Below, piece after piece: positions 885-33,097 of a DNA stretch of 36,952 nucleotides. Both the position numbers and the translations under genes were made by a program. Source of the stretch: Pseudomonadota bacterium. Lineage in GTDB: Bacteria; Desulfobacterota; Desulfobacteria; Desulfobacterales; RPRI01. Below the pieces are notes generated by a model. The model had not been told where the DNA came from. It searched no databases and saw only the letters and a program-made list of their open reading frames with translations. Positions within the stretch are counted from its first letter, which is position 1; each line of letters begins with the position of its first letter. The DNA lies in contig JAHIFE010000238.1 of the NCBI GenBank assembly GCA_018901125.1, forward strand, positions 1-36,952. Direction: 5' to 3'.

Positions 885-3369
885 TTATTTAAGAGTATTC
901 ATCGAGTTTTGATATGCATTAGATATTGTGCTTAAACTTGGAAATACATCATTTGCCACATGTTTAACTGTCGACCAATTCCAACCCCAGTTTTGCATGC
1001 TCTCACCGTTGTGCCCAGGTAAATCTTGGCCCACATGTAACGCAGAAGGCATAAAGCCGCTTTGAATAATATTATTTGCATTGGCAAGAGCTTCGCCTTG
1101 CGTTTGATAACGATTGAGAGTTGAATCAAACCCGCTCATTGCATGGGTGTTAGCTGCAGGTGCAGTCCGATCCGTTGAATTACTATCTTCAGCCATAACA
1201 CTTAATGCAAGTGTTAGACTGCCCCGTATACTACGCCCGGAATTCAATGCTGCCACTAATGTTATCCCGCCATGCCAGAAAAAGGCAAGCTCACCATTTG
1301 GGTCAATCAGATTCGTTGGGTTGTTCCCCACATACGCCATCAAATTCACATCCCCGCCATCAAACCCAATCGGATCTTCGGAGATAAACCTACCCACCTG
1401 GGGATCATAATACCGTGCCCGCATGTAGTAAAACCCGTTCGGCTCGGCCATAACCCCAAACTGTCCCACATACTTGAACGGCTGGGGTACGGCTTCCACT
1501 TCATTATTGATATTTCCAAATTCATCATAAGCATATTTATTCACTATATTCTGACTGCTATCCGTCATGGCAACTGTGCTGCCGATGGTATTGTAATGGT
1601 AGCAGTAAACCTGATCCGAAGGAGTAACCATTGCCATCAGACCCTGGCCGTAAATGTAGTAGCGGGTAATAACATTATTGTTATCCGCCTCGGCTAACAG
1701 ATTTCCACCCGCATCATAAATGTAACGTGTTTCAACACCATTTCGTAAAGCTTTAAGCCTGTTGCCTGTGGCATCATAGGAATAAACATAATTACTTCCG
1801 ATAGCCGTAAGCCTGTGATCATAATCGAATGTATAATATGATCCGTATCCGTTTGTAATCTGCCCTTCATCATCATAACCAAAGCTGTTTGCACCATCAG
1901 AAAGCAATCTGTTCTTATATGTGTTGTAAGTATAATTGGTGTTTTCCAATGCAGCTGTATCAGTTAGCGGTTCGTCTTTTATAATATTTGTACGATTGCC
2001 GTTTTCATCCAGATCAAACTGATAAGTCGCAATCGCTGCCCCGCCCTGCTGCCTGTTTTCCAGCGAAACCAGCCTGTTCGCATCATCAAAATCGTATGTG
2101 CTTGTGGTGCCGTTAAAGTTATCAATGCTTGCCAGCCGACCTGCGGCATCATAATTATATGTGGCGGTCTGGCTCAGCCAGTCAAGCGTTACCGTTTTCA
2201 TGCGGTTAAGTTCGTCATAAGTGTAGCTAACACTTTTGTTTCCAGGATATGTGAGCTTTGTTACATTTCCGGCTTCATCATATTCATAGGATACATTAAA
2301 TCCGAATGGGTCGGTTTTTGAAGTTAAGCGATTTACAGCATCATATATATATCCGGTAGTTCCTGTGGAATCCTGCATACTCTCAAGATTGTCAAGCTGA
2401 TTGTATGTAAAATTTACTTCGGAAGCATCAGGATATGTAATGGTTTCCGGGTTGCCGCTTTGGGTGTATGAGAGTGTGATGGTATTATTATTACGGTCTG
2501 TTTTGGTATGAAGTGAACCATCATTATAATAGGTAAGGGTTGTGCTCTTTCCCAGAGGATCTGTTTTGCTTAGCAATAAGCCACGACGGTCAAATGCAAA
2601 TCTTGTAATTGCGCCTGCCTGGTCGGTAAGTTGCACCATTCTTCCAACAGAATCATAATCATAATCTATCACAGGTTCGGCAGATACCCTGGAGGTATTG
2701 GGATTTCCGACAGCATCATAGGTTATGGTGGTAATAACCCCGCGTCCATCCGTGACAGTATTTGGGAAACCATTGGGATACGGTGTTGTGCTTGTGCTGA
2801 TTTGTTTGTCGGATTCGGGATACGAAGTTGCCATGATGGGATGATGTTCGGCATCATAATCAAGGTGAGAAATCTTTTTTTGCCTTACCGAATTTAAGGC
2901 ATACCAGGAATCGGTCTTTCTGAACAAAGCATCGTAATCAAATTCCATATCATACTCTGTTCCTGACAGCGGGCTTTTAGTGCTTATCAGATTTTGATTG
3001 CCATCATACTCAAATTCGGAAATATTGCCCTTAGGGTCAACGGTTTTTATAACATGATCCTGACCGTCAAAAGTCTTGGTAAACTTGTTGCCCAGAGGGT
3101 CTTCCTGGGCATATTCGCGGCCCTTATGATCATAATAATATGTGAGCGCATTGCCATCCGGGTCTACTTCCTGATTGCGGTACCCTGAGAAATAGAAGCT
3201 GTAGTCAGCTGTGCCTCCGCCCTGGCGCGGTAATGTTTGAATTATAACCCTGCCAAAATCATCATTAAGCATATTTAACCGATCCGGCATAAGAAGTTAT
3301 AAACGATGTAATAAGCAGTATCAGAACAGCAGCACAAAGAAATATTACATGCTTAAGCTTAAATAGCAT
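885..3369 (-). pseudogene. Secreted RHS/YD-repeat protein with PLC-like C-terminal tip, frameshifted after signal peptide
   Basis: The long frame (ATG at 3290, 801 codons) is a chain of YD repeats ending in the RHS-core signature YYMRARYYDPQVGRFISEDP, followed by a unique tip at residues 668-801. Its apparent start lies in the middle of a repeat. In another frame a good signal peptide begins at 3369 (MLFKLKHVIFLCAAV..., ending SYA-GSVKYA) behind GGGGGGATGACAAA, then stops at TAA 3267-3265. Removing one A at 3265/3266 joins the two frames into GSVKYAYDDFGRVI, a normal first YD repeat, giving 827 residues. The tip has H673, H716, an HxxxDxxxH motif (H752, D756, H760) and HxxxD (H777, D781). This pattern is reminiscent of zinc-dependent phospholipase C/P1 nuclease folds. 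Either the gene is broken by a 1-nt insertion, it shifts frame, or this is a sequence error. Confidence 0.8.
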
Positions 3370-3711
3370 TTTGTCATCCCCCCGTTGTTCACTATTTGAA
3401 ATCTTAGAATAACCCCCGATTCTATTTTCTTGCATTTGTTTTCCCGTATTTTATCTATTATCTATGGCAGCATATAAAATAACGCCCTACGGCTATCGGC
3501 AATATAACAAAAATTCCCCCTTTAAAAATTGCCACTCTTCACATCCCCCAAGAAACCCTTCTACATTCATTATTCCTTGTTCGATATTCGATATTCTTCT
3601 TTCTTTCAAATGGGCTTTATATCCCACACCCCTCCAAGGCAATTAAGTTCCATCAATCTTTCAACAAGAGCTAAGAGTAGAACTGACAACAACTATCCTC
3701 TTAATCACAAA
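3370..3711. other. Intergenic region between the two RHS genes
   Basis: This 342-nt stretch holds no supported gene. It contains the ribosome binding site of the downstream RHS gene, a heptamer array (3555-3596), and AT-rich sequence with no recognisable coding remnant. Short open frames on the plus strand have no family signature. Confidence 0.5.
3555..3596 (-). repeat. Heptamer array, GAANNNN x6
   Basis: Read on the minus strand, the units are GAATATC, GAATATC, GAACAAG, GAATAAT, GAATGTA and GAAGGGT. All six keep exact 7-bp spacing and a GAA start. This is the short tandem heptanucleotide type known from several bacterial lineages. Confidence 0.75.
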
Positions 3712-6700
3712 TCAAGGTTTGACCCTGATCCCCTGATCCCCCTGGTATGTAGTTACCTGAGATTTGGCATCGGTAACGGATGCAAGGCTTCCGTGGCCGT
3801 CATAGGTATAAGCTGTAATCAGGTTGCCAGGCTGAGTTACAGTTTTTAGCCGGTTTAAGGCATCGTATGTATAGCTTGTGGTTTTTCCGTTAAAATCGGT
3901 TACAGAAGATACATTGCCTCTTACATCATAGGCATATTCCATAAAACTGTCGTCATGCTTGATCTCTTTGTAAAGTTTTCCGGGTATAGCCGGATGCTGA
4001 TAATCAAAACGCTTCCAGTTTGTGCGTGTTGCCGCCGGATCATAATAACTCTTATCTGTCGGATTACCCTGAGTATCATACAGGTTATCAATATAATTGC
4101 CCTCATGATCGGTAACACGGGATAGCCTTCCGTAAGTTGTGTCATAAGTATAACCGGTATTTACACTGTCTTCATCGGTTCTTGATTCTATAAATCCGGC
4201 AGCATTAAAGGTAGTGCTTGCCGTGCTCGAATCATCCGCATGATACACATCCGTAGCCCTTCCCCTGCCATCATAAGTGTATGTGCTTACATGGCCGTTT
4301 ACATCGGTGGTCTGACCAACCTGACCGGCATTGTCATAATTTTGAAAAAGACTGCTTCCAACAAGCGGCCTTGTAATGGATGTAATATCGCCTGAACTTA
4401 AATTATATACAAAAGTACTTGTATCTGCGGTTCCGGCAACAGGGCCGTCTATGGATAAAACCTGACCTTTGGCATTGTAAGTAATCTTTGTTATATATTC
4501 ATAAGCAACTGTTGCTCCGGTATTATCTGCTGTAAAACCCTGCTCGATAACCCGGCACAAATTCCCCGTTGGGTTCTGGTTTGGCGTGCTGTTGTAATCA
4601 TCATCATAATCCCAGATGGTAACCTTGTTGCCGGTACCCAAAACACTAACTTCCATTCTTGTTAAGGGCACATTCATATCGGGATGATAGGTATAAATGA
4701 TTGTCCTTTGTTCGGGAGCGCCCGATGCCAGGATAACGGTTGCCGGATTTCCTTTTGCATCATAGTTCTGATAAAGATTTATAACACCTCCGGCATCTTC
4801 TGTTTCAATTAGATTCATGTTTGCGTCATAAGCCCATCTTACAACATTATTTGCACTGTACGGTGCTTCTGCAATGCCGCTTACGCCAAGCACTCTTTTT
4901 CTGCCCCCTGCTTCGATAATAGCGTAAGTTCTTAACACACCATAAGCATCGGTAACTTCTACCTGGATATTGTCGATATAAACAACCGACACCCCTGTTC
5001 CGTTAACACTGAAATTATTTATCGCTCTATCCAGATCATCATATGACCAGGTATTTAAAAGATGATTTGCATTGTTTTTCTTTTCCGTAAGATTGTGAAT
5101 GTCATATGTGTCGGTATAAGCATAATTGAATCCCGAACCATCGGCATATGTAACGCTTATAAGATTTGCATTTGTATCATAGCCGTATTGCACCCATATT
5201 CCGTCTGTAACAGCAGATGTAACCGGCCCTGTGATATTTTCCAGAAGATTATTTGCATTATAGTTAAATGTCAGGGTTCTGCCGCTTGAAGTATCTGTAA
5301 CCGTAGATACCAGATCATTTGCATTATAAGCTATTTCAAGACTGTTTGATTTTTCATCTGTAATACGGATAAGTTTTCCTGAAGAATTGAAAGTATATCG
5401 CGATCCGTCAGTACGATGCCAGATGTATTCACCGGAAACATTTGTAAGAGTTGAGCGCTCATTAAAAGCCGCCTGATAAACACCGGGAGATATTTCTTCA
5501 AAAAAGATCCCTCTTCCGGTACCGTCCGTTATTTTGATATAGTTTAGATTGTTAAACTGGTAGGAAGTATCAAGAGATGCTTCATAAGTATGCGTCCAGC
5601 CGTATCCGAGAGCACCAGTTACATCGGATTGGCTGTTGTAAAATGCGGTAAGTGATAATCCAGTTTTATTGGGGGAGGAAAATTGCAGATCGTTTCTGTA
5701 TTCAAGCACATTGCCGTTTAGTACGCGGATTGTTTCACCTACAAGACCTCCTCCGCCCTGCTGTTCATCATAATCGAAACCAAGATCTGACAATGGCGGT
5801 ATATTTTGCGCAAGCGGTAACTTTTCATCAAGTTTACTAATTTCATCCAAATCAAGATTTGTATTAAGACTTGTTATTATATCGGAAGATTTTGCAGAAG
5901 AATCCGAATTTAATACCATAAACGTTACATTGCCGGATATTCCGCCCCCCGGCTTAGGATTAGAAGCTGTTATTTCTATATGCCCACCAGTTTGAAGATC
6001 AGCAGGAACTAAGCTTAATTTCAGTTCTGTTGAACTTATGGGAGTGTAAGTTCTCTGAATGCCGTTTACATAAATTGCAGTATCGTTAATAAAGCCTTTG
6101 CCTGAAATATTTACCGCCAGGCCAAGAGTTCCTGCTATAGCCTGGGGAGGATCGATGGTTGATATTAACGGTACGGGATTTTGCACTGTAAATGTAAAGC
6201 TGTCCGATACGCCGCCTGATGGCAAAGGATTTGTTACGGTAACAGGAAAGATGCCCGCACTTGAAAGAAAAGTTGAGGGAACTATGGCGTCAAGCGTGTT
6301 GTTACCGGAAAATGCAGTATTAATGTCGAACCGGTTAAACTTAACAGAGGATGAAGCGATAAATCCTTCACCGTCTATTCTTAATTTCACATCAGTATCT
6401 CCGGCAGCTGCGCCCGATGGAGTAATTTCTGTTATCCGGGGCACAGGATTTGGAAGTTGAACTTCCAGAACGCCTCTTTCAGGCTGATCGCCTGCCGTGT
6501 CTTTTAAATAAGAAACAAGGCTGATGTTTCTGTATTTATCTACTGCTACAGATCTTAGGCTGTTTATATCGGTTATCGGATATTCATTTAATGTGTTTGT
6601 ATTTAGATCAAGGAGCAGAAGACTTTCTTCTCCGGTTATAACCGCAATATGGGTGGATGGGTTTATATCAAGCCCATAGGTGGAATCATTCTGAAAATAG

Positions 6701-7653
6701 GATAATCCGCTTCCTGCATTTTCAAGATCGCCTATTATAGTCTCATCAATTTCAGAATTGTAAAGGTTTAGAAAACTTGTGATATCGGTATTAATGTCCG
6801 AGTCATTAATATAGTCATTGCCGCCACCAGCTAAATAGTCCGTAATGCCTTTGAGTTTGATTCCGGTTAAAAAATCATCCCCATCCTTTATATTGGAAAT
6901 TATGCTGCCGCTTGAAATATCAAAAAGATTTAGCTCCTTAAGACCTGATGTAATGCTTATGCTTTTGCCTGTATCTATCGCAACACCTTTTGCACCTCTT
7001 TTAAGGGTTATGGTGTTTAAAACCGTACCGCTGTCGATATCGGCTATCATTACTATATTCTGTCACCAGCTGAAAACCCCTTCGCCTGCTGCAACAACCG
7101 CCCTGTTTGTATCCGTGTCAACCGCAACAAGCCTGGGTTTATAGGCAAGCGGAATCTCTTGCAATGTTTCCAAAGTATCTGCAGAAAGAACTAATAGCTT
7201 CTTTTCCCGCTCAAGCGCTATTACAATGGTATTATTTTCAGGATTGACCGCTATGCCGTGAGAATCACCGTTTATGGTAAGCGTATTTAAAATTGCACCG
7301 GTTGAATCAACTGTGCATAAAAAACTGTTATCGTTTAATAATCCGTTATCATTAAGAGTAACATAGGCAAGATTGTTTTCAGGATTTACCGCAATACCTA
7401 TCGGTCTTCTTGCAAGAGAGACTGTTTTTGTGACCAAATGGGAGCCAAGATTAATTATATAAAGGCTTTTTGTATGCTTATTAATTCCATAGGCCATGCC
7501 GGTGTTTGGCGAAAGGGCAATCGAATCTATAAGGCTGTCTGTGGAGATATTACCGATAACCGAAATATCTCCGGCAGTTAAAATGCAGGGAATAAACAGA
7601 ATTGCTAAAACAAGCAGATACAGAAAGGCTCTTTTCCTTGCGGATCTCCTCAT
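3712..7653 (-). pseudogene. Large exported beta-propeller/TIG/RHS protein, interrupted by in-frame TGA and 3'-truncated
   Basis: Two frames lie in the same phase. The first starts at ATG 7653 (an upstream TTG at 7677 is possible) with signal peptide MRRSARKRAFLYLLVLAILF and runs through propeller-like repeats (IAVNPENNLAYV, IAVNPENN) to TGA 7065-7063. The second begins 12 nt later (QNIVMIADIDSG...) and continues the same propeller. Two IPT/TIG-type domains follow (motifs PRITEITPSGAAAGDTDV and PLISTIDPPQAIAGT), then a DUF6531-like entry segment (LSLTAFYNSQ...ALGYGWTHTYE) and many YD repeats. The protein ends abruptly after VTDAKSQVTTY; the last ten residues come from a G-rich repeat (GGGGGATCAGGGGATCAGGG), so the RHS core closure and any tip are missing. 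In sum, one ancestral gene with a nonsense codon and a lost 3' end. Confidence 0.8.
3723..3742 (-). repeat. Short G-rich repeat at the truncated RHS end
   Basis: The minus strand reads GGGGGATCAGGGGATCAGGG, three G-tracts separated by ATCA. It replaces the normal continuation of a YD repeat and forms the last codons before the stop. It resembles the G-rich array at 11646-11708. Confidence 0.6.
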
Positions 7654-7967: not shown

Positions 7968-9230
7968 CTATAATCTTTGTATGAGGTAAACATACACCGG
8001 CATTCTAATGGAATATTTTATTGTGTGAAATTTTCTCTTGATCTCGTCATTATCCCTTTCACCTATCAGTGGAGAGAGATAAATACAGCCTTTGACAGAA
8101 CGGTCCGGAATGTTTTCATTTATAAAGTCTTGCATGGAAGTTAAATGAGACGTTGGTAGTTGTGATCCGATGATAAAATTTCCGGTAATTTCAATATTGC
8201 TGTATTTTCTGTTGATTTCAATCATACGCTTAAAAGCTTTTTTTGAATCATCAGCTTTTACGGGTTTGCCGATTAAATCGAGTGTTGTTTGGTCGAATGA
8301 TTCAAAGCCGATATTGATATATGTGTGAAATGGGGAATCATCAAGCATGCTGAAAATCTCTTCATCCGCGTTGAGTAATGAAAAGATACTGCCGAATAAA
8401 TATAGATAATTATCAAGCATCACAGTGTTTTTTATGAGTTTATAAGACTCGCCTATTGCAAATGCCATAATACTTTCATTTGCAACCAATGCATCATGAT
8501 TGCCGAGAAATACTGAATTATAGTTGATAATATCTTCGCCGTAAAATTCTCTTAATTGATTTAGCTGCAAAGCGATATTCGCTTCGTTGCGGATATTAAT
8601 TTTTTCACCTGATTTGACCGAACAAAAACTACAGTTGTATACGCATCCGTCCGCGATAATAACAGGAATAACATCGTAATCCGAATGTCGCGTGTCCGGC
8701 GGAAGCACAGATATAGAGCTTTTTATGATGCTGTGAATATCGGGTTCGGGCAAAACGGAATTATTGTTAATTATTTTGTTAAGAAGTACTTTGTTCTCTG
8801 AACAGGCCGGTTCATCGATAACATTCTTTAATTTACTTACAAAGGATTGAAGAGAATCAAGGGCATTTAAAACATATTGGCTTTTAAATGGCTTGTAGTC
8901 GAAAACCGAGTTGGAATTATAATTAAGGCATAGTGTGTAGTATTCGCCTTCATATGCGAAAGCATTACTATAGCCCATACCTGCGGTGTAAAATATCCAA
9001 TCATTTCCTTTTGTGCGTTTCAGCCAATCTTCACGAGGCCAATCATTATGCCGCTTTCCGCTAATTATTTTTGCCCTGCCGTTTAAATCAAAAATATATT
9101 CATAACCTTCTGTTCGAATCTTTATATAATTCCCGTAACGGATAGGATGGGTTGCTTTGCTGTATTTATCCAGGCCTGACTCTATTGAAACGGAAAAGTT
9201 ATTTAGCTTTGAAGCGCACTCGGCTAACAT
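7968..9230 (-). CDS. Radical SAM protein of unknown substrate
   Basis: This 420-residue protein has a CxxxCxxC cluster-binding motif at C196, C200 and C203 (DGCVYNCSFCSVKSG). It should ligate a 4Fe-4S cluster and cleave SAM to a 5'-deoxyadenosyl radical. The NIGFESFDQTTLDLIGKP segment after it is typical of the radical SAM barrel in the B12-binding/MiaB/HemN-like branch. The N-terminal 180 residues are unlike a cobalamin-binding domain and I cannot place them. AAGGTGAT precedes the ATG with normal spacing. The gene lies 177 nt behind the 713-residue protein of the GRE locus on the same strand. It may be the last gene of that operon or independent; the gap leaves both open. Confidence 0.8.
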   Translation of the reverse strand: MLAECASKLNNFSVSIESGLDKYSKATHPIRYGNYIKIRTEGYEYIFDLNGRAKIISGKRHNDWPREDWLKRTKGNDWIFYTAGMGYSNAFAYEGEYYTLCLNYNSNSVFDYKPFKSQYVLNALDSLQSFVSKLKNVIDEPACSENKVLLNKIINNNSVLPEPDIHSIIKSSISVLPPDTRHSDYDVIPVIIADGCVYNCSFCSVKSGEKINIRNEANIALQLNQLREFYGEDIINYNSVFLGNHDALVANESIMAFAIGESYKLIKNTVMLDNYLYLFGSIFSLLNADEEIFSMLDDSPFHTYINIGFESFDQTTLDLIGKPVKADDSKKAFKRMIEINRKYSNIEITGNFIIGSQLPTSHLTSMQDFINENIPDRSVKGCIYLSPLIGERDNDEIKRKFHTIKYSIRMPVYVYLIQRL

Positions 9231-9407: not shown

Positions 9408-11549
9408 TTATACGTTTTCAAGGTCGAACCCGATAGACAACCTGATCTGCTGCCACGCTGAATCCATCAGCAGAAAGTAACCGAAAAGACCGTAACGGTA
9501 TATTTCCGGATCTTTGGCAGGATCATAGGGTTCAATTATATTGGTGGCATACATCAACCGGCCCAAAAAAAGTCCCTCGGCAATCTGTACCAATTCGTCT
9601 ATGCAGTAACAGTCGGGAACAATTGTCTTTAGTTTTGGCCAGCGATAATTTAACTGAAATATTTCTTTGCCCTTGCTTTGCGGGTTGATTGAAAGAGTTT
9701 TTTTTGCAATGAAAAAGAAATTCTTCACATCATAGCCAAACTTCTGAGCTTCTTCTGTTGTTGCCTTTTCAGTCCATATATCGGACAGATTCATAAGGCG
9801 TCCCACAAAGCGCTCTTTAAAAGTGCGCAGAGCCTGAGCATTAGAACCCCAAAAAGTATTAGCATTTCCGGTTTCATGCCCATCGGTGAATTCTAACAGC
9901 TTCTCTTTGGAAACGGGGTCAAATCTTTTGCCTGTCCAGGTGGAAAATGGTGCTGCCATACGTGTATAAAGCAAATTGATTGTGTTGGTTTTGAAAAGAT
10001 CGAAAATGCCTGCTGAATGCCAGCTTACCAGTGCCCCGTTGTAAAAGCCATCCATAGTATCCGGGGCGATACCGCTGTTAAACAATTCCCCAAGCTGATC
10101 AAAATAAGGCGATTCGTTGGACAGGTTATCCTTAAGTTCTCCGGCACATGCCTTCAGATAATGAAGTAAAGTAGGATACTGCCCTGATTGAGTAAGTAAA
10201 TCGCCCTTTATTTTATCATTACATGAAGTAGGCGCCGGTTCCTGAAACGTGAAGGCAGTAAATTTGTTCTGTTTAAGATCAAGGCCTATTTTAGGTGTTT
10301 GCATGCCCGGTGCATTTGGAGGAATCTCCAGATAAGTGAAGAGACGCCGTGCCTCGGCATGCCAATTGCTGTCTAAAAGAAGAAAATAACCGAAGTTTTG
10401 ATAGTTGTAATCTGCGGGCGGACGTTTAGGATCATAATCGCGTATAAGTTTGCGTGTGGCGTAGCAAAGTTGTCCCAGAAAAAGGCCGGAAGAAATCTCG
10501 ACAAGTTCATCGATAAGCCAGCCGTTAGGAACCGGGTTGTTTAAAGATTTGTAGCGATAGTTTAGCTGGAATATAGGCCGGGGGGATTTTGCACAGACGG
10601 AAAAGGCCGGGCTGCCGATAAAATAGCCGCCGTTTTTATCCCAGTTATAAGCCTTTCTTTCACTCTCGGGAGCCGGATGCAGGTTCATCAATGAAGTTAA
10701 CATCTGAAATGCTACCGGATTTAAAATGCGGGTGGAAATTTGATTAAAATGGTTGATTCCCAGCAGTACAGGTGAGTTTGCATCAGGCTGTTGCCCGATA
10801 ATCGCCTGCATCCGTGACGGTTCAACCTTTTGAAGGCTTTTGCCTACCCAGGGGCTTTCATTAGAAAGACCGGTGCCCCATATAAGTCCCAGAACATTTC
10901 CAAAGTCGGCCATGTTTTCCGGCATTTCACCACATCGCACTCCAAGAGTGATGCCGTAAAAATGACCCTGTACAATTTCCGGAGTTTTGCCTGCATCAAA
11001 CAGAGCTGAAAGTTTTGAATATACAGGATCATTGTTGTCGGAACTGCAATCAAGGATTTCTTTATACTTATAAAACAGCTCAAGGATTGAACCCTGTTTT
11101 TCAAGTTCGCCATATACCTGATCAAGAATAGTATTATCAGGCTTGCTGTCTGAACGAAACGTCCATGTTTTTAAGCCCGATCTGGAATCTGTGCCGGAAC
11201 CTTTGCTTATAGAGGCTTTATGCTGTATATCTATACCGGCTTTTACCAGAGCCGGGTCTGAAAGAGCCACGTCAATTACAATATCTTTTATAACATCATA
11301 GATTATGTTACTGCGTGTGCTGTGCAGCAGATCGCCCTTGGAATTTTTAACCTTCAGGTAGATATCAGGTCTATCGATTACTTCGTTTTTTCCATGACAC
11401 TTTATGGCAAATGTGCCGCTATTATCGGTTTTGGCCGTGCCCAGCAGATCGTCAATGAACAAATCGGCGTCATACGCTTCAACCGTAAGACCGGCAATAC
11501 CTTGTCCTATATCTTTTCTTTTAATGGTTCCGCTGATAGTAAATCCCAT
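9408..11549 (-). CDS. Transthyretin-like domain plus two tandem copies of an unrecognised module
   Basis: Residues 1-95 look like a carboxypeptidase-regulatory/transthyretin-type beta-sandwich (GTIKRKDIGQGIAGLTVEAY, then TDNSGTFAI). After a linker, a ~250-residue module occurs twice, about 140-400 and 455-703. Matched landmarks are LFDAGKTPEIVQG/LFNSGIAPDTMDG, PWVGKSL/TWTGKRF, FQLNYR (327 and 631), IDELVEISSGLFLG (346) and IDELVQIAEGLFLG (650), and FGYFLLLDSNW/FGYFLLMDSAW. The 19-residue distance from FQLNYR to IDELV is identical in both copies. No signal peptide is seen, so it is probably cytoplasmic. The W-x-GK-x-F and late LxG...YFLL pattern faintly recalls the calycin-like GXWXG/DUF4334 proteins; this is weak and from memory. 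A strong AAGGAGGT lies before the ATG. The gene follows the GRE activase by 56 nt. Confidence 0.75.
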   Translation of the reverse strand: MGFTISGTIKRKDIGQGIAGLTVEAYDADLFIDDLLGTAKTDNSGTFAIKCHGKNEVIDRPDIYLKVKNSKGDLLHSTRSNIIYDVIKDIVIDVALSDPALVKAGIDIQHKASISKGSGTDSRSGLKTWTFRSDSKPDNTILDQVYGELEKQGSILELFYKYKEILDCSSDNNDPVYSKLSALFDAGKTPEIVQGHFYGITLGVRCGEMPENMADFGNVLGLIWGTGLSNESPWVGKSLQKVEPSRMQAIIGQQPDANSPVLLGINHFNQISTRILNPVAFQMLTSLMNLHPAPESERKAYNWDKNGGYFIGSPAFSVCAKSPRPIFQLNYRYKSLNNPVPNGWLIDELVEISSGLFLGQLCYATRKLIRDYDPKRPPADYNYQNFGYFLLLDSNWHAEARRLFTYLEIPPNAPGMQTPKIGLDLKQNKFTAFTFQEPAPTSCNDKIKGDLLTQSGQYPTLLHYLKACAGELKDNLSNESPYFDQLGELFNSGIAPDTMDGFYNGALVSWHSAGIFDLFKTNTINLLYTRMAAPFSTWTGKRFDPVSKEKLLEFTDGHETGNANTFWGSNAQALRTFKERFVGRLMNLSDIWTEKATTEEAQKFGYDVKNFFFIAKKTLSINPQSKGKEIFQLNYRWPKLKTIVPDCYCIDELVQIAEGLFLGRLMYATNIIEPYDPAKDPEIYRYGLFGYFLLMDSAWQQIRLSIGFDLENV

Positions 11550-11605
11550 TATCTACCTCCTTGTTTTTAATAACGAAAATCGAAGTAAATTGTTCGATAT
11601 TAGTA

Positions 11606-12616
11606 TTATTTATCATGGCTTGTAATTAAAGTCTTTCTGCTATTTCCCTTATCCCTGATCCCTGCCCCCCGATCCCCGATCCCCGAACCCTGACCCCCGA
11701 ACCCTGTTAGCTTTTTTTTAACTATGGTATCAAATATTTTTACAATATCCCTGTATTTTTCCAGAGCTATGGAATGGGCAAAAAGATTGGGTGCCGCGTC
11801 TTTTCCTATAGCGGAAGCTTTTATAATGGCTCCCGGGTGATAGGGAAGAAGGCGGTAAGGCAAATGGTCTATTGAGCCTATAAATTCTGCTATAGACTTA
11901 AGATTTCCCAGCTCTGCTGTAAATCCGCTTATAACAGGAATCGAACAGGTAAGTTTGCTGTGCGCCATATAAACAAGCTTTGAAAAATTTGCCAGGATAT
12001 TAGTGTTTGATTGCCCGGTGAATTGCAGATGCAGATCGGGATCAAGACATTTGATGTCAAAATAAATCAGGTCGATCATGTCAAGTAATTCGGTTTCAAA
12101 CAAATCCCAGTGGAAAAAACCGCAGGTTTGCAGGGCCGTATGAACTCCGTTGTCCTTAAGCTTTCTCAGTACCTGGCCAAGGTAAAGGCAGTGCTGCGTG
12201 GGTTCGCCTCCGGAAAAGGTGACTCCTCCCTTCGAATGTTCAAAAAATCGCTTGTCTTTTAATATTATCCCGACCAGTTCTTCCGGTTCATAATAACGCC
12301 CCTTTATAGTCATGGCTTTGCCGGGACATTCGGCAGCACACAGACCGCAACCATTACACAACTTTCGGTTGATCCGGACACAGCCGTTTATGGTAATAGC
12401 ACCTTCAGGGCATACAGATAAACAATCGCCGCAGAGAATGCAGTTTTTAGGCTGATGGAAGAGTTCGGGCTCAGAAGCTATACCTTCCGGATTATGACAC
12501 CAGATGCAATTTAACGGACAGCCTTTGAAAAAAACTGTAGTTCTGATTCCCGGTCCGTCATCCAGGGCATAGCGGTGAATATCGAAAATCAGCGGACGGC
12601 GCTTTTCGGGGTTCAT
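11606..12616 (-). CDS. Glycyl radical enzyme activating enzyme (radical SAM, two extra 4Fe-4S clusters)
   Basis: This is the SAM-dependent activase that should generate the glycyl radical on the neighbouring GRE. The radical SAM motif CPLNCIWC uses C33, C37 and C40. The ferredoxin-like insert has two CxxCxxCxxxC sets, C59/C62/C65/C69 and C87/C90/C93/C97, as in activases of the glycerol/choline-lyase type rather than of PFL itself. TFSGGEPTQ and IYFDIKCLD are family motifs. It starts 5 nt after the stop of the SCP2-like gene with no clear ribosome site, suggesting translational coupling. The final ~33 residues (from about 304, GFGGQGSGIGDRGAGIRDKG...) are encoded by a G-rich heptamer array and do not look native: an unusual added or replaced C-terminus. 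Confidence 0.93.
   Translation of the reverse strand: MNPEKRRPLIFDIHRYALDDGPGIRTTVFFKGCPLNCIWCHNPEGIASEPELFHQPKNCILCGDCLSVCPEGAITINGCVRINRKLCNGCGLCAAECPGKAMTIKGRYYEPEELVGIILKDKRFFEHSKGGVTFSGGEPTQHCLYLGQVLRKLKDNGVHTALQTCGFFHWDLFETELLDMIDLIYFDIKCLDPDLHLQFTGQSNTNILANFSKLVYMAHSKLTCSIPVISGFTAELGNLKSIAEFIGSIDHLPYRLLPYHPGAIIKASAIGKDAAPNLFAHSIALEKYRDIVKIFDTIVKKKLTGFGGQGSGIGDRGAGIRDKGNSRKTLITSHDK
11646..11708 (-). repeat. G-rich heptamer array x9 inside the activase 3' end
   Basis: On the minus strand nine units of form NNNNGGG follow each other: AACAGGG, TTCGGGG, GTCAGGG, TTCGGGG, ATCGGGG, ATCGGGG, GGCAGGG, ATCAGGG, ATAAGGG. The array is read through as codons. Nine G-tracts of three or more within 63 nt make it a strong G-quadruplex candidate in both the coding strand and the mRNA. 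Confidence 0.85.
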
Positions 12617-12621
12617 GGCAT

Positions 12622-13083
12622 TTATAGTTTCCCGGTGTACTTTAGCTGCAAATGTTTGGACATATATGCGAATTTGTAAATGTAATTCAGATTGCCATCT
12701 ATAGTAATATCCTGGCTCAGCAGTGAACCAAGAATATCAGGTTTGGGGCTTAGCAGAAAACCCATAAGAGACTTGCCATTGCGAAAGATCACGGTAATAT
12801 TGGTATTGTCGATCTCTTTTTTACTGACCTTCATGTTGTTGTCATTAAATATTGCGGCTACAGTGATCTTTCTGTCCTGGCTGCAAAACAGGTAACGGGC
12901 GTTGAAGTTTTTTATATTTTTTCTGAAGTCCTTATCCAGATACAGTACAAGGCTCATAAGATTCAGAAGTACTTCTAAAAATCCTTCTGCCTTTTCAGAC
13001 TGTACTGTTTGCAGAAAATTATCAGCCGCATTTTTGGCACGTTGGGATCGCATCATAATAATATTTAATACTTTATTCCACAT
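12622..13083 (-). CDS. SCP2-like small protein in the GRE operon
   Basis: This 153-residue protein resembles the SCP2 sterol-carrier fold, mainly in its second half. VIFRNGKSLMGFLLSPKP followed by LLSQDITIDGNLNYIYKF matches the family pattern of a short strand, a leucine-rich helix and a small-residue/GxxxxxGD-type turn. SCP2-like proteins bind lipophilic ligands or act as accessory domains, for example in quinone synthesis. The N-terminal part (residues 1-55) is helical and basic. There is no signal peptide. GGAGG sits 7 nt before the ATG. It lies 27 nt after the GRE and 5 nt before the activase, so it is surely co-transcribed. Assignment is by pattern and not certain; the role may be substrate or cofactor handling. 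Confidence 0.6.
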   Translation of the reverse strand: MWNKVLNIIMMRSQRAKNAADNFLQTVQSEKAEGFLEVLLNLMSLVLYLDKDFRKNIKNFNARYLFCSQDRKITVAAIFNDNNMKVSKKEIDNTNITVIFRNGKSLMGFLLSPKPDILGSLLSQDITIDGNLNYIYKFAYMSKHLQLKYTGKL

Positions 13084-13110
13084 AACATAGCCTCCTTGTC
13101 GTTGTAACAG

Positions 13111-15591
13111 CTATTTTGTTCCCAGCATGCCACTGTGAGCATCCGGAAACGGTACTGATTTACCGCTTCTCAGATCATATGCCGTCCGGGTAATTATCTC
13201 ATCTTTCATGGCATCGTTTAAGTCTTTAAAATATGCTGAATAGCCGGAAACCCGCACCAGCAGTTCAGGATATTCATCCGGGTGCTCCTTGGCGGCAAGC
13301 AGCATTTCATAGTCCATGATATTGCACTGAATATGCAGCCCCCCGCTTTCGAAGTATGTTTCTATGCCTGCGCCGAATTTATCGATATCTTCGGTACTGT
13401 TTATAGAAGGATATTTCAGGTTGAAGGCTTCGCCGCCGGGAATACAAATTGGGTCCAATCCGCCAACAGATTGCAGGCAGGAAGCCAGATCGGTAGCAGC
13501 CTGGGAAACGGGAGTAATTCCGCTTGCAAAAACCTTGTTTGCTTTTCGTCCATTGGGCAAGGCACCGGAAAGTTTGCCCTGTCCTGCATGGTTGGTCATA
13601 GTCCAGAAAGCCGGTTTATAAGTGCCGCCGCGGTAATTGGTATGGCTTTGATAAAAATCAAATAACAGTTTTACCACCCGCTGGGCATTGGCCTGAGCCG
13701 AAGGTTCCATACTGCCATATTTGGGTGTATGGTTAACCAGATAGGCATGCAGCTTCTCGTAGCCTTTAAAATCTGCCTTCAGGGCAGCCAGCAATTCAGC
13801 AAAGGTGCATTTACGATCTGTAAAAATTGCTTTTTCAATAGCACTGATTGAATCTACAGTGTCTGCAAAAGCGATGTGGGTAGCACCGGAAGAATTATAT
13901 ATTGCGCCGCCGAAAATCAGATCCTGGCCTTTGTCCATAGGGCCTTCGAAAAAAGCCGAAAGCAGAGGCGAGGGAAGAATATCCTGATAAACCATGCCAA
14001 ACATTTCATTAAGTTCAATAGCTTTTCCTGCAACCCATTTAAACTGCGTAGAAAAAGCATTCCAGAAATCTTCAAAATCAGTAAAAGTAACGGGTTCGCC
14101 TGTAGCCGGGCCTATCTGTTCGTCGCCTGTAACCGGTCTTTTGCCATTGTAGAGGGCAAGTTCCAAAACGGAAGCCAGATTCAGCATAATTGAGCTTGAT
14201 GCGTCATAGCTGCGTCCGGCAGAAGCCAGTTCCACACAGCCTATAACGGCATAATCCCTGGCGTGTTCGGTTTTTACGCCCTGATTTTCAAGAGTACGAA
14301 TATCTGCAATATCATTGTGCACAGCCGGTACAGAGTGTGTGTTTGCTATAACCTCAGTCACCCGGTTGCGGTAGTCTTTGTTATTTACGGTTTGGTGATA
14401 ACGGGCATTAAGACTGGGATCGCGGGTCTTAAGCAGCTCGGTTACGCGAAGCATAATATAGGTCAAATCATTTACTGCATCTTGACCGTCTGCGTTCACC
14501 CCCCCGACAGTCACGGCCGGCACAGTTCCGGCTCCGCCAAACAGCTCCTCGGCAGTCTCTGGCACAAGGTTTGTGTTGTCATTCAGTTTGAGCCACAGGC
14601 AGCCGGTTAATTCCAGAGCCTCTTTAACGCTTAATTTGCCTGCCTGCATATCACGTTTATAATAGGGGTAGAGTATCTGATCAAGACGTCCGGGGCTCAT
14701 AGCCATATTGATGTTTTCCGCATGGATGGCTATCTGAATGATCCACAAAGAATTGATTGCTTCGCGAAAAGTCCTGGCAGGCTTTGACGGTACCTGGGCA
14801 CAAACTTCTGCCATCTGAAAATAATTATTTTTAAGTACAGGATCATTTTCTTTTTGAGCTATCCTGGCAGCTTCGGCACTCAGGTTTTCGGCGTAAGCAA
14901 TAATGCCCTGCAAAGCTATTTGAACTGCCCGGTAAAAAAGAACACTTCGCTGCTGGTCTTCATCCTGATTGCTTTTTGCTTTGAGATCATTTTCCTTTAT
15001 TGCTGCCTGATCTATAATATACTTCAGGCCATGTTCAAGTGCTGTTGCATAATGAGGTACTGTATGGGAGATGGTTCCTGCCTTGCTTGCAATAAAAAAA
15101 ACTATGCGCTCGAAAAGTCTCATGCATTCCGGATTATTGTGGCGCTTGCGGGTTACTTCAAGGACATTGCGATCCATCCAGTAAGGATAAATATCAAAGT
15201 TGAGTTCATCAGCTTCCGCCCGTGTCAGGGCAAGGGGATTTTTTTCCCGTGTGCTGATAACATCAAGTTCCGGCCAGATAGTAAGACCTGTCCACTCAGG
15301 GTAAACCGGCGCTCCGAAAGCCTTAGCGCAGGTGGTACCGGCAAGCAGATTGTCGTCGAAGAACAGTGGCTGCTTTCCGCCCAGAAAGTATGCCACGGCA
15401 CCGGCATAGCGTGTAATCATTGGATCACTGTCCAAAGACATATCCTTTAGAAAACGGGTAACATAACGCGCCCGTTCAATACACACCGCTGGTTTGGTTT
15501 TAAGCAGGTTGCTACGCAAACGATTGAGAAGCGGAACATTGTCCAGGGTGTACTCTGAAAGCCTGATATCCTTTAGTGTTATTTCGCTCAT
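13111..15591 (-). CDS. Glycyl radical enzyme, CxE-type lyase/dehydratase of unknown substrate
   Basis: At 826 residues this is a full-length member of the pyruvate formate-lyase superfamily. The glycyl radical loop is RVSGYSAYF with G783 as the radical site. The thiyl cysteine is C452 in IGCVELASAG, with E454 two residues on. In characterised GREs, C-x-E marks the eliminases and decarboxylases (glycerol dehydratase, choline TMA-lyase, isethionate lyase, hydroxyphenylacetate decarboxylase), where the Glu acts as acid/base. PFL instead has adjacent cysteines. Other landmarks are SPGRLDQILYPYY (299-311) and GLHIQCNIMD (751-760). The residues after GCVE (LASAGRSYDAS) differ from the GCVEP form I remember from dehydratases, so I do not name a substrate. 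A GGAG lies before the ATG. First gene of the locus; needs strict anaerobiosis and the downstream activase. Confidence 0.93.
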   Translation of the reverse strand: MSEITLKDIRLSEYTLDNVPLLNRLRSNLLKTKPAVCIERARYVTRFLKDMSLDSDPMITRYAGAVAYFLGGKQPLFFDDNLLAGTTCAKAFGAPVYPEWTGLTIWPELDVISTREKNPLALTRAEADELNFDIYPYWMDRNVLEVTRKRHNNPECMRLFERIVFFIASKAGTISHTVPHYATALEHGLKYIIDQAAIKENDLKAKSNQDEDQQRSVLFYRAVQIALQGIIAYAENLSAEAARIAQKENDPVLKNNYFQMAEVCAQVPSKPARTFREAINSLWIIQIAIHAENINMAMSPGRLDQILYPYYKRDMQAGKLSVKEALELTGCLWLKLNDNTNLVPETAEELFGGAGTVPAVTVGGVNADGQDAVNDLTYIMLRVTELLKTRDPSLNARYHQTVNNKDYRNRVTEVIANTHSVPAVHNDIADIRTLENQGVKTEHARDYAVIGCVELASAGRSYDASSSIMLNLASVLELALYNGKRPVTGDEQIGPATGEPVTFTDFEDFWNAFSTQFKWVAGKAIELNEMFGMVYQDILPSPLLSAFFEGPMDKGQDLIFGGAIYNSSGATHIAFADTVDSISAIEKAIFTDRKCTFAELLAALKADFKGYEKLHAYLVNHTPKYGSMEPSAQANAQRVVKLLFDFYQSHTNYRGGTYKPAFWTMTNHAGQGKLSGALPNGRKANKVFASGITPVSQAATDLASCLQSVGGLDPICIPGGEAFNLKYPSINSTEDIDKFGAGIETYFESGGLHIQCNIMDYEMLLAAKEHPDEYPELLVRVSGYSAYFKDLNDAMKDEIITRTAYDLRSGKSVPFPDAHSGMLGTK

Positions 15592-31933: not shown

Positions 31934-33097
31934 ATGATTGCATATTTTGACTGTTTTTCCGGAATAAGCGGTGACATGACTTTAGGTGCTTTCATTGACC
32001 TTGGTGTACCAATTGACTGGCTTAAAGAAAATATTAATAATATCCCCTTAAATGATTTCGAGTTGTCCGTTTCAAATGTTTTCAAAAACGGGATAAGCGC
32101 AAAACAAGTTGAAGTAAAAACTTCCGCATCTTCCGTATCAAGAAACTATTCTCAGATTTTATCCCTTCTTTCAAATAGTTCTCTTTCGGCAAATATTAAA
32201 GATATGAGCACCTCAGTTTTTGAAATAATCGCTACAGCCGAAGCCCAAATTCATGCCTGCCCAAAAGAAAAAGTACATTTTCATGAGTTAGGCGGAGTAG
32301 ATTCAATTGTCGATATTGTCGGAACAGCTCTTTGCATTGATTACCTTGGAATAACAAAGGTATATTCATCAAAAATTCCCATAAGTTCAGGCTTTGTAAA
32401 CTGCCAGCATGGAATTATTCCGGTTCCGCCGCCTGCTGTGTTATCAATATTAAAAGATGTTGCTGTATATGGCGTTGATATAAAAAAGGAGATTGTAACA
32501 CCCACCGGTGCCGCTATTGTAAAGGCGCTTTGCCAATCATTCGGGACATTCCCTGATATGATTGTCGAAAAGACAGGCTATGGCGCAGGAAAATATGATC
32601 TTGAACATATTCCGAATCTTTTAAGAATTACAACAGGCAGGGACACAGCAAAAGAAATCTATCAAAAAGATGTTATCCTGCAGATAGAAACCTGCATTGA
32701 TGATATGAATCCTGAAATTTTCGGATTTCTGATGGATCGCCTTTTTGAAGACGGAGCCCTTGATGTATACTGGACACCTGTTTATATGAAAAAGAACAGA
32801 CCGGGAACCAAGATATATGTAATTTGCAGCCATCATAATAAGGATGTCGTTATTAACCGGATCTTATCTGAAACTACTACAACAGGTGTCAGATATCATG
32901 AGCTTGAAAGAAAAAAACTATCAAGGCACCAGGTTGAGATGAAAACAATCTACGGAATTGTTTCGGTAAAATGTATCACAAACACGGATGGCACAAAACG
33001 CTTTGTTCCTGAATATGAAGTTTGTAAAAAAATTGCTCTTGAGAAGAATATACCTATAAAAAATGTGTACGAAAATATTCTAAAGGATTTATCCTGA
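31934..33097 (+). CDS. larC: LarC, nickel insertion for the pincer nucleotide cofactor
   Basis: LarC uses CTP to insert nickel into pyridinium-3,5-bisthiocarboxylic acid mononucleotide, the cofactor of lactate racemase and relatives. The 387-residue protein begins with the family signature AYFDCFSGISGDMTLGAFID and has the VHFHELGGVDSIVDIVG and NIDDMNPE-like (CIDDMNPEIFGFLMDRLF) segments. It is one uninterrupted reading frame, unlike lactobacilli where a ribosomal shift joins two parts. larA, larB and larE are not in the window. Its TGA overlaps the next ATG. Confidence 0.95.
   Translation: MIAYFDCFSGISGDMTLGAFIDLGVPIDWLKENINNIPLNDFELSVSNVFKNGISAKQVEVKTSASSVSRNYSQILSLLSNSSLSANIKDMSTSVFEIIATAEAQIHACPKEKVHFHELGGVDSIVDIVGTALCIDYLGITKVYSSKIPISSGFVNCQHGIIPVPPPAVLSILKDVAVYGVDIKKEIVTPTGAAIVKALCQSFGTFPDMIVEKTGYGAGKYDLEHIPNLLRITTGRDTAKEIYQKDVILQIETCIDDMNPEIFGFLMDRLFEDGALDVYWTPVYMKKNRPGTKIYVICSHHNKDVVINRILSETTTTGVRYHELERKKLSRHQVEMKTIYGIVSVKCITNTDGTKRFVPEYEVCKKIALEKNIPIKNVYENILKDLS

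Follow-up and report, generated by a model that had tools for sequence, protein, structure and literature searches.

The window, by which we mean the whole stretch of 36,952 nucleotides that was analysed, is contig 66 of a 4.45-Mb genome that is 98.4% complete. It contains a minus-strand run of four genes, encoding a glycyl radical enzyme (GRE), a small partner with a predicted SCP2 fold, a radical-SAM activase and a tandem-module protein, separated by intergenic gaps of 27, 5 and 56 nt. These coordinates match exactly the run and the gaps claimed in the original prediction. The genes, the parts of the tandem-module protein and three residues of the GRE are as follows, with the basis of each assignment in brackets.

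13111..15591, minus strand: glycyl radical enzyme (GRE), 826 aa (Pfam, NCBIfam, alignment)
12622..13083, minus strand: partner with a predicted SCP2 fold (lipid-carrier fold), 153 aa (AlphaFold model, Foldseek/VIA)
11606..12616, minus strand: radical-SAM GRE activase with CX3CX2C and two 4Fe-4S motifs, 336 aa (TIGR02494, Pfam Radical_SAM, Fer4, sequence motif)
9408..11549, minus strand: tandem-module protein, 713 aa (family cluster of neighbour proteins)
11247..11549, minus strand: transthyretin-like head of the tandem-module protein, residues about 1-101 (Foldseek TTR-52, VIA)
10290..11177, minus strand: module 1 of the tandem-module protein, predicted GXWXG/DUF4334-like fold (VIA to 4mve)
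9411..10277, minus strand: module 2 of the tandem-module protein, a copy of module 1 (identity, shared invariant columns)
14236-14238, minus strand: thiyl Cys452 of the GRE (codon checked)
14230-14232, minus strand: Glu454 of the GRE (codon checked)
13243-13245, minus strand: radical Gly783 of the GRE (codon checked)

An AGGAG motif resembling a ribosome-binding site lies 5' of the GRE start, and scans for promoters and terminators gave no signal exceeding that of shuffles. A Pfam scan of the 29 ORFs of the window found no BMC shell family. The radical-SAM gene at 7968-9230 was considered as a fifth partner and rejected, as it has no homologue in the loci of 36 relatives or in the best 80 of 425 GRE loci described below.

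The activase matches TIGR02494 with 269.9 bits against a cut-off of 174, together with Pfam Radical_SAM and Fer4. Since the genome has no PFL-like match other than this GRE, the adjoining activase most probably serves it. The genome also holds a DsrA match of 622 bits, and the host is therefore a sulfate or sulfite reducer.

The glycyl radical enzyme and its place in the superfamily

The GRE matches the PFL-like and Gly_radical families of Pfam with 547 and 64 bits, and it is intact, with Cys452 and Glu454 in a GCVE sequence (the GCxE motif) and Gly783. Across 64 aligned GREs, all 39 SCP2-linked members keep the thiyl Cys, the Glu two positions after it and the radical Gly, as well as the His equivalent to His164 of glycerol dehydratase. 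The columns of His281, Ser282 and Asp447 in glycerol dehydratase, which from the 1r8w structure we take to be diol/glycerol-binding residues, are M296, A297 and S466 in the window GRE, and the original residues are absent there from all 39 clade members. Instead the first column holds Met (27), Ser (4), Val (3), Thr (3), Ile or Ala, the second Ala (33) or Gly (6), and the third Ser (26), Gly (6), Asn (6) or Ala. With this set lost, a glycerol-dehydratase pocket is excluded for the clade. HypD, CutC and HpsG likewise do not have the set, and therefore its loss alone does not indicate a hydrophobic pocket.

None of the curated NCBIfam cut-offs for CutC, HypD, HpsG, HpfG, PRK09983, the indoleacetate and HPA decarboxylases or PFL is reached by the GRE. 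It scores 441 bits against a cut-off of 1000 for HpsG, 440 against 1100 for HypD and 429 against 1050 for CutC, i.e. at most 44% of any named GRE equivalog cut-off, and 543 bits for TIGR01774 (the PFL2-3 group), below the cut-off of 678. The closest solved structures, at 364-396 bits, include PFL2 (2f3o), CutC and glycerol dehydratase.

To place the GRE we used a tree of 64 hand-chosen sequences, obtained by a quick search and with some long branches, in which CutC, HypD, HpsG and glycerol dehydratase are the labelled groups and benzylsuccinate synthase, the decarboxylases, isethionate lyase and PFL were left out. In this tree a single clade (SH-aLRT 100) unites 28 SCP2-adjacent GREs, including that of the window, with two GREs fused to SCP2 at the C-terminus and nine at the N-terminus. 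The N-fused members, a sister branch, form one sub-branch with a support of 100. The four labelled groups lie across a starred branch from the clade, and its nearest outsiders are five GREs without an SCP2 neighbour (L172, L193, L191, L174 and L176). Membership of the CutC, HypD, HpsG or glycerol-dehydratase groups is ruled out by the scores, the tree and the residues; the expectation that the GRE would fall outside clades of known substrate is therefore borne out with respect to these four groups of the 64-sequence tree.

With glycerol dehydratase (1r8w, 368 bits) the GRE shares the Cys, the Glu, the His164 equivalent and the radical Gly, but it differs from this enzyme and the PFL2-3 group in the three replaced residues, in its additional SCP2 partner and in lying outside their branch. 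The GCxE motif and the radical-SAM activase family are shared with CutC, HypD and HpsG, whereas the scores are far under their cut-offs, the clade is another one and their control loci are without an SCP2 neighbour. Benzylsuccinate and alkylsuccinate synthases are GREs that act on hydrophobic substrates and have small accessory subunits, and fumarate-adding GREs are not known to have the Glu of the GCxE motif. Hydrophobic substrates are proposed here too, but the motif is GCVE and the partner is predicted to be an SCP2 fold, not an Fe-S subunit.

Pairing with an SCP2-fold partner across genomes

The AlphaFold model of the 153-aa partner, built with 64 homologues, has a mean pLDDT of 89.9 and shows the SCP2 fold. 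The top Foldseek matches are UbiJ-SCP2 (E 2.4e-5), alkylsulfatases, AF1534 and human SCP2, and insect SCP2 is also among the fold matches. The ten best VIA rows have Z-scores of 12.0-13.6 over 105-121 residues, and the identity to the nearest folds, UbiJ-SCP2 and the alkylsulfatases, is about 10-15%. The Pfam SCP2 family (PF02036) does not match the 153-aa protein of the window and is weakly matched by 29 of the 64 homologues (best E 0.00021). The original call of an SCP2-like protein thus holds by the predicted fold and without a Pfam SCP2 match.

In UbiJ-SCP2 and the alkylsulfatases Pisa1 and SdsA1, an SCP2 domain is appended to, or works with, enzymes for long-chain substrates. The partner shares their SCP2 fold according to the model, but its enzyme is a radical enzyme. 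The matched alkylsulfatases presumably carry the SCP2-like domain at the C-terminus, and going by their titles the entries include one structure with 1-dodecanol and another with decane sulfonic acid. Lipid binding can be lost in SCP2 folds.

A first search with the partner covered 291 genomes of the order and matched 43 of them, at 47 places. Among the 22 stand-alone partner loci fetched from outside the window, a GRE adjoins the partner in 21, one of them (L040) with a broken GRE frame, and the remaining locus is truncated by the end of its contig. The order has 24 weaker SCP2 places; twelve of the 14 fetched are SCP2-GRE fusions, and in the other two the SCP2 domain is fused to a molybdopterin oxidoreductase (L060) and to a NAD-binding dehydrogenase (L065).

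A GRE-profile scan of named genomes gave 425 matches, of which the best 80 were retained. In 77 of these best 80 loci the GRE is followed by an SCP2-like frame or carries it as a C-terminal fusion, a figure that speaks for GREs near that of the window and not for all GREs, as the profile sequences were gathered via SCP2 neighbours. The three exceptions (L070, L132 and L140) all stop at contig ends. Six of the best 80 loci are C-terminal fusions (L090, L093, L094, L100, L123 and L124), two of which, L123 and L124, are identical at 1013 of 1017 residues. The SCP2 gene comes directly after the GRE, and ahead of the activase in loci that have one nearby. An activase is present in 68 of the best 80 loci, and five others have no local one despite more than 8 kb of downstream sequence (L077, Desulfoluna L103, L110, L111 and Desulfosediminicola L113).

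As a control we used 48 GRE loci from outside the clade with flanks of about 1.5 kb, some of them cut by contig ends. Two of the 50 controls had been dropped, as their GREs belong to the SCP2 clade; one carries an SCP2 gene (L197), and the other, on a contig ending close to the GRE, is without it (L175). Neither SCP2, DUF6765, the tandem protein nor a GXWXG protein occurs within these flanks in any of the 48 controls. The 77 of the best 80 of 425 loci, the fusions and the control together rule out that GRE and SCP2 are chance neighbours.

The 80 best loci bear 13 NCBI phylum labels; they are mostly metagenome bins and some labels are unreliable, those of Myxococcota and Pseudomonadota perhaps merely reflecting the filing of 'Deltaproteobacteria bacterium' and 'Proteobacteria bacterium'. 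Clade records are also labelled Bacillota, Spirochaetota, Bacteroidota and Acidobacteriota, and by title SCP2-clade records come from sediment, groundwater, gut and soil. Within the phylum, 19 of 148 genomes have an SCP2-profile match, and one of the genomes (G067) has two SCP2-GRE copies. Judging by title and abstract, no paper found in full-text searches of an open-licence library deals with the pairing of GRE and SCP2. Papers on a limonene GRE and on benzene activation concern other systems.

The tandem-module protein and other neighbours

The original prediction had looked for conserved synteny of both partner genes. This holds for the SCP2 gene but fails in part for the tandem-protein family, which is found in only 24 of the best 80 of 425 loci; the neighbour clustering places it in 34 of the 117 mapped loci, with some contigs counted twice. 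The two modules are 26% identical to each other and have invariant columns in common, and family homologues contain the module singly or in tandem. By eye, some of the homologues start with a lipoprotein-like signal. In the fold search with the 713-aa model (pTM 0.52) the transthyretin-like head fills the list (Foldseek to TTR-52, E 8e-5; VIA Z about 10), so that module 2 and the remainder of the model are barely covered. The duplicated, transthyretin-headed architecture described earlier is therefore present in the window, but the head is not general, as TTR-52 or CarboxypepD_reg is matched by three of 26 family members.

Module 1 aligns to 4mve (Tcur_1030) with a VIA Z of 9.9 over 141 of 148 residues, within the model range 127-395, and the GXWXG-DUF4334 profile matches 4mve itself (3.5e-28). 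Module 1 is thus predicted to share the GXWXG/DUF4334 fold, by fold and not by sequence: none of the 26 family members has a GXWXG or DUF4334 Pfam match at E 1, and hhalign of the modules against GXWXG-DUF4334 (P 0.16) gives no support. The tandem copies and the transthyretin head also set the protein apart from 4mve. Plain GXWXG-DUF4334 proteins lie upstream of the GRE in four of the best 80 of 425 loci, two labelled Bacillota, one Spirochaetota and one Fibrobacterota, and none of the four has the tandem protein.

The commonest extra gene encodes DUF6765, which appears in 56 of the 117 mapped loci in the neighbour clustering, where some contigs are counted twice. It is present in 50 of the best 80 of 425 loci, on the strand of the GRE in 47 and within 300 bp in 41. 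The residues invariant among 26 sequences include H6, D35, H79, H135, D139, H143, H189 and D197, and nine of the 26 weakly match the zinc-dependent phospholipase C family (Zn_dep_PLPC, PF00882; best E 0.0012). From the weak profile match and the invariant His/Asp set, DUF6765 is a possible relative of zinc phospholipase C, but it is a separate Pfam family and lies away from the GRE of the window. It is absent from the window because its gene is on another contig in this genome, where no GRE occurs in the 16 kb that were read. In the phylum, DUF6765 is found in 26 of 148 genomes, 21 of them without any SCP2-profile match. The five genomes shared with the 19 that match SCP2, against 3.3 expected, are near chance, and the link therefore rests on adjacency.

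Around the N-fused members we scanned 73 ORFs, six of which flank the molybdopterin fusion L060, with matches not assigned to loci; they include TetR regulators (4), enoyl-CoA hydratases (3), one aldehyde ferredoxin oxidoreductase and one AMP-binding enzyme, a mild hint at hydrophobic carbon metabolism. Among 127 operon-like neighbour ORFs of the stand-alone form, calcineurin-like phosphoesterases (6) and papain-like proteases (5) are commonest, and no dehydrogenase or aldehyde-handling family recurs in the 25 commonest families. The commonest neighbour families of the stand-alone form give no pathway. Profile searches of the PDB with the DUF6765, SCP2-like and tandem alignments gave no meaningful match.

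Possible function of the GRE-SCP2 pair

The GRE variant with an SCP2-fold partner is real and recurs widely: its gene content, catalytic residues, separate clade, steady pairing and gene fusions are observed, together with the predicted fold of the partner. We propose, with a probability of about one half, that it is a GRE subfamily for hydrophobic substrates, in which a lipid-like substrate is presented by the SCP2 subunit and undergoes radical elimination. The activase would place the radical on Gly783, from where it would pass to Cys452, and Cys452 would abstract a hydrogen adjacent to a hydroxyl group of the substrate. This hydroxyl would lose its proton to Glu454 and a neighbouring group would leave, as happens in CutC and the diol dehydratases. 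The SCP2-fold subunit or fused domain may bind the acyl or alkyl part and offer the polar end to the barrel. Where present, DUF6765 (possibly Zn-PLC-like) may strip a phosphate head group first, and the GXWXG-like protein may handle substrate or product. The lipid binding, the contact between GRE and SCP2, the elimination chemistry, the order of the steps and the substrate are all proposed by analogy with eliminase GREs and SCP2 proteins, from which a lipophilic substrate, as also suggested originally, may reasonably be inferred. Against the proposal speak the ability of SCP2 folds to lose lipid binding, the low specificity of DUF6765, which is unlinked in this genome, the neighbour families of the stand-alone form, in which neither dehydrogenases nor aldehyde-handling enzymes recur among the commonest 25, and the five loci without a nearby activase.

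DUF6765 suggests a phosphate-bearing lipid upstream of the GRE step. A more specific version, in which a glycyl radical lipid lyase acts on an SCP2-held membrane-type lipid and cleaves or rearranges its polar end after PLC-like removal of the head group, is put forward tentatively, and we would sooner doubt it than rely on it.

The SCP2-fold protein might instead carry no lipid and serve as a subunit for structure or activation, stabilising the GRE or guiding the activase. The position directly 3' of the GRE and before a local activase and the fusions at either end fit this explanation, and GREs with small subunits are known, e.g. benzylsuccinate synthase and hydroxyphenylacetate decarboxylase. 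However, the partner has a lipid-carrier fold in the model, and the same domain is fused to enzymes that are not glycyl radical enzymes, the oxidoreductase of L060 and the dehydrogenase of L065, so we regard such a role as unlikely, if worth keeping in mind. We find it rather improbable that the system acts on membrane lipids of the cell itself, by anoxic remodelling or ether/plasmalogen-type chemistry, and does not degrade outside lipid, an idea that overlaps with the proposed lipid presentation, which is not tied to one lipid. The single PFL-like match in the genome of the window, the 13 phylum labels, some of them unreliable, and the lack of a constant catabolic family alongside speak for it, but the distribution is patchy (19 of 148 phylum genomes by SCP2 profile), G067 has two copies, and DUF6765 appears hydrolytic.

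The GRE could also be an ordinary enzyme that acts on a small polar molecule, whether as a dehydratase, an amine lyase or a sulfonate lyase, with an incidental SCP2 neighbour; this would agree with the GCxE motif and with closest structures that include a PFL2, CutC and glycerol dehydratase. The separate clade and scores of 44% or less of any GRE equivalog cut-off argue against it, while the 77 of the best 80 of 425 loci and the fusions oppose an incidental neighbour, which makes it very improbable. There is a still slimmer chance that the enzyme is a sulfonolipid C-S lyase supplying sulfite to sulfate reducers, a special case of lipid presentation. DsrA is present in the genome of the window and sulfonate enzymes exist in the GRE superfamily, but the clade also occurs under the labels Bacillota, Spirochaetota, Bacteroidota and Acidobacteriota, phyla in which sulfite respiration is not known to be general.

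Much of the carbon and sulfur chemistry of anaerobes is driven by GREs, and to our knowledge those with a GCxE-type active-site motif have small or aromatic molecules as substrates. If true, a glycyl radical lipid lyase would be the first GRE we know of whose substrate is an intact lipid, and its distribution would span many anaerobic lineages. A GRE clade built on a lipid-carrier fold would point to oxygen-free lipid reactions that have no assigned enzyme, and the anaerobic breakage or remodelling of hydrolysis-resistant lipid bonds would become testable with a defined set of three proteins.

Other genes of the window and an unlinked DUF6765 gene

Outside the four-gene run, the window carries the following genes:
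885-7050, two large proteins with RHS/YD repeats, encoded further downstream than the radical-SAM gene
7968-9230, a radical-SAM protein of no clear family, on the same strand as the four-gene run and just downstream of it
31934-33097, a nickel insertion protein (PF01969, 473 bits), presumably of the LarC type

No counterpart of the radical-SAM gene was found in the loci of relatives (36 relatives' and 80 named loci). The window's own genome also has a gene for DUF6765, a frequent neighbour of related glycyl radical enzyme (GRE) loci, at 4339-5304 of contig 74, unlinked to the GRE run. It is preceded by a small lipoprotein-like ORF on the same strand.

Related GRE loci

Three relatives from the same order (G067, G105 and G140) have at least ten GRE matches in each genome, including several frames of 1000-1050 residues, the size of the SCP2-GRE fusions. 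Among the related loci, the GRE frame is fragmented in L116, L088, L127 and L040 and the activase gene is split in L041/L076, all of which represent decay or assembly errors. A single cluster of neighbour proteins is common to seven loci (L035, L088, L089, L109, L118, L131, L139); the member scanned, from L109, is a papain-like cysteine protease. Peptidase_C1 matches were obtained for 5 of the 127 neighbour ORFs.

Other partners of the SCP2-like domain

In three loci of other genomes the SCP2-like domain, a predicted lipid-carrier fold, is joined to other sequences in one protein:
L096:2750-5050, followed by a long pentapeptide-repeat region in a single frame, immediately after the GRE
L065:9857-11197, fused to a 3-hydroxyisobutyrate-dehydrogenase-type NAD enzyme
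L060:9157-12162, fused to a molybdopterin oxidoreductase (AhtL-like)

The L060 fusion suggests that the SCP2-like module is also at work with other anaerobic enzymes.
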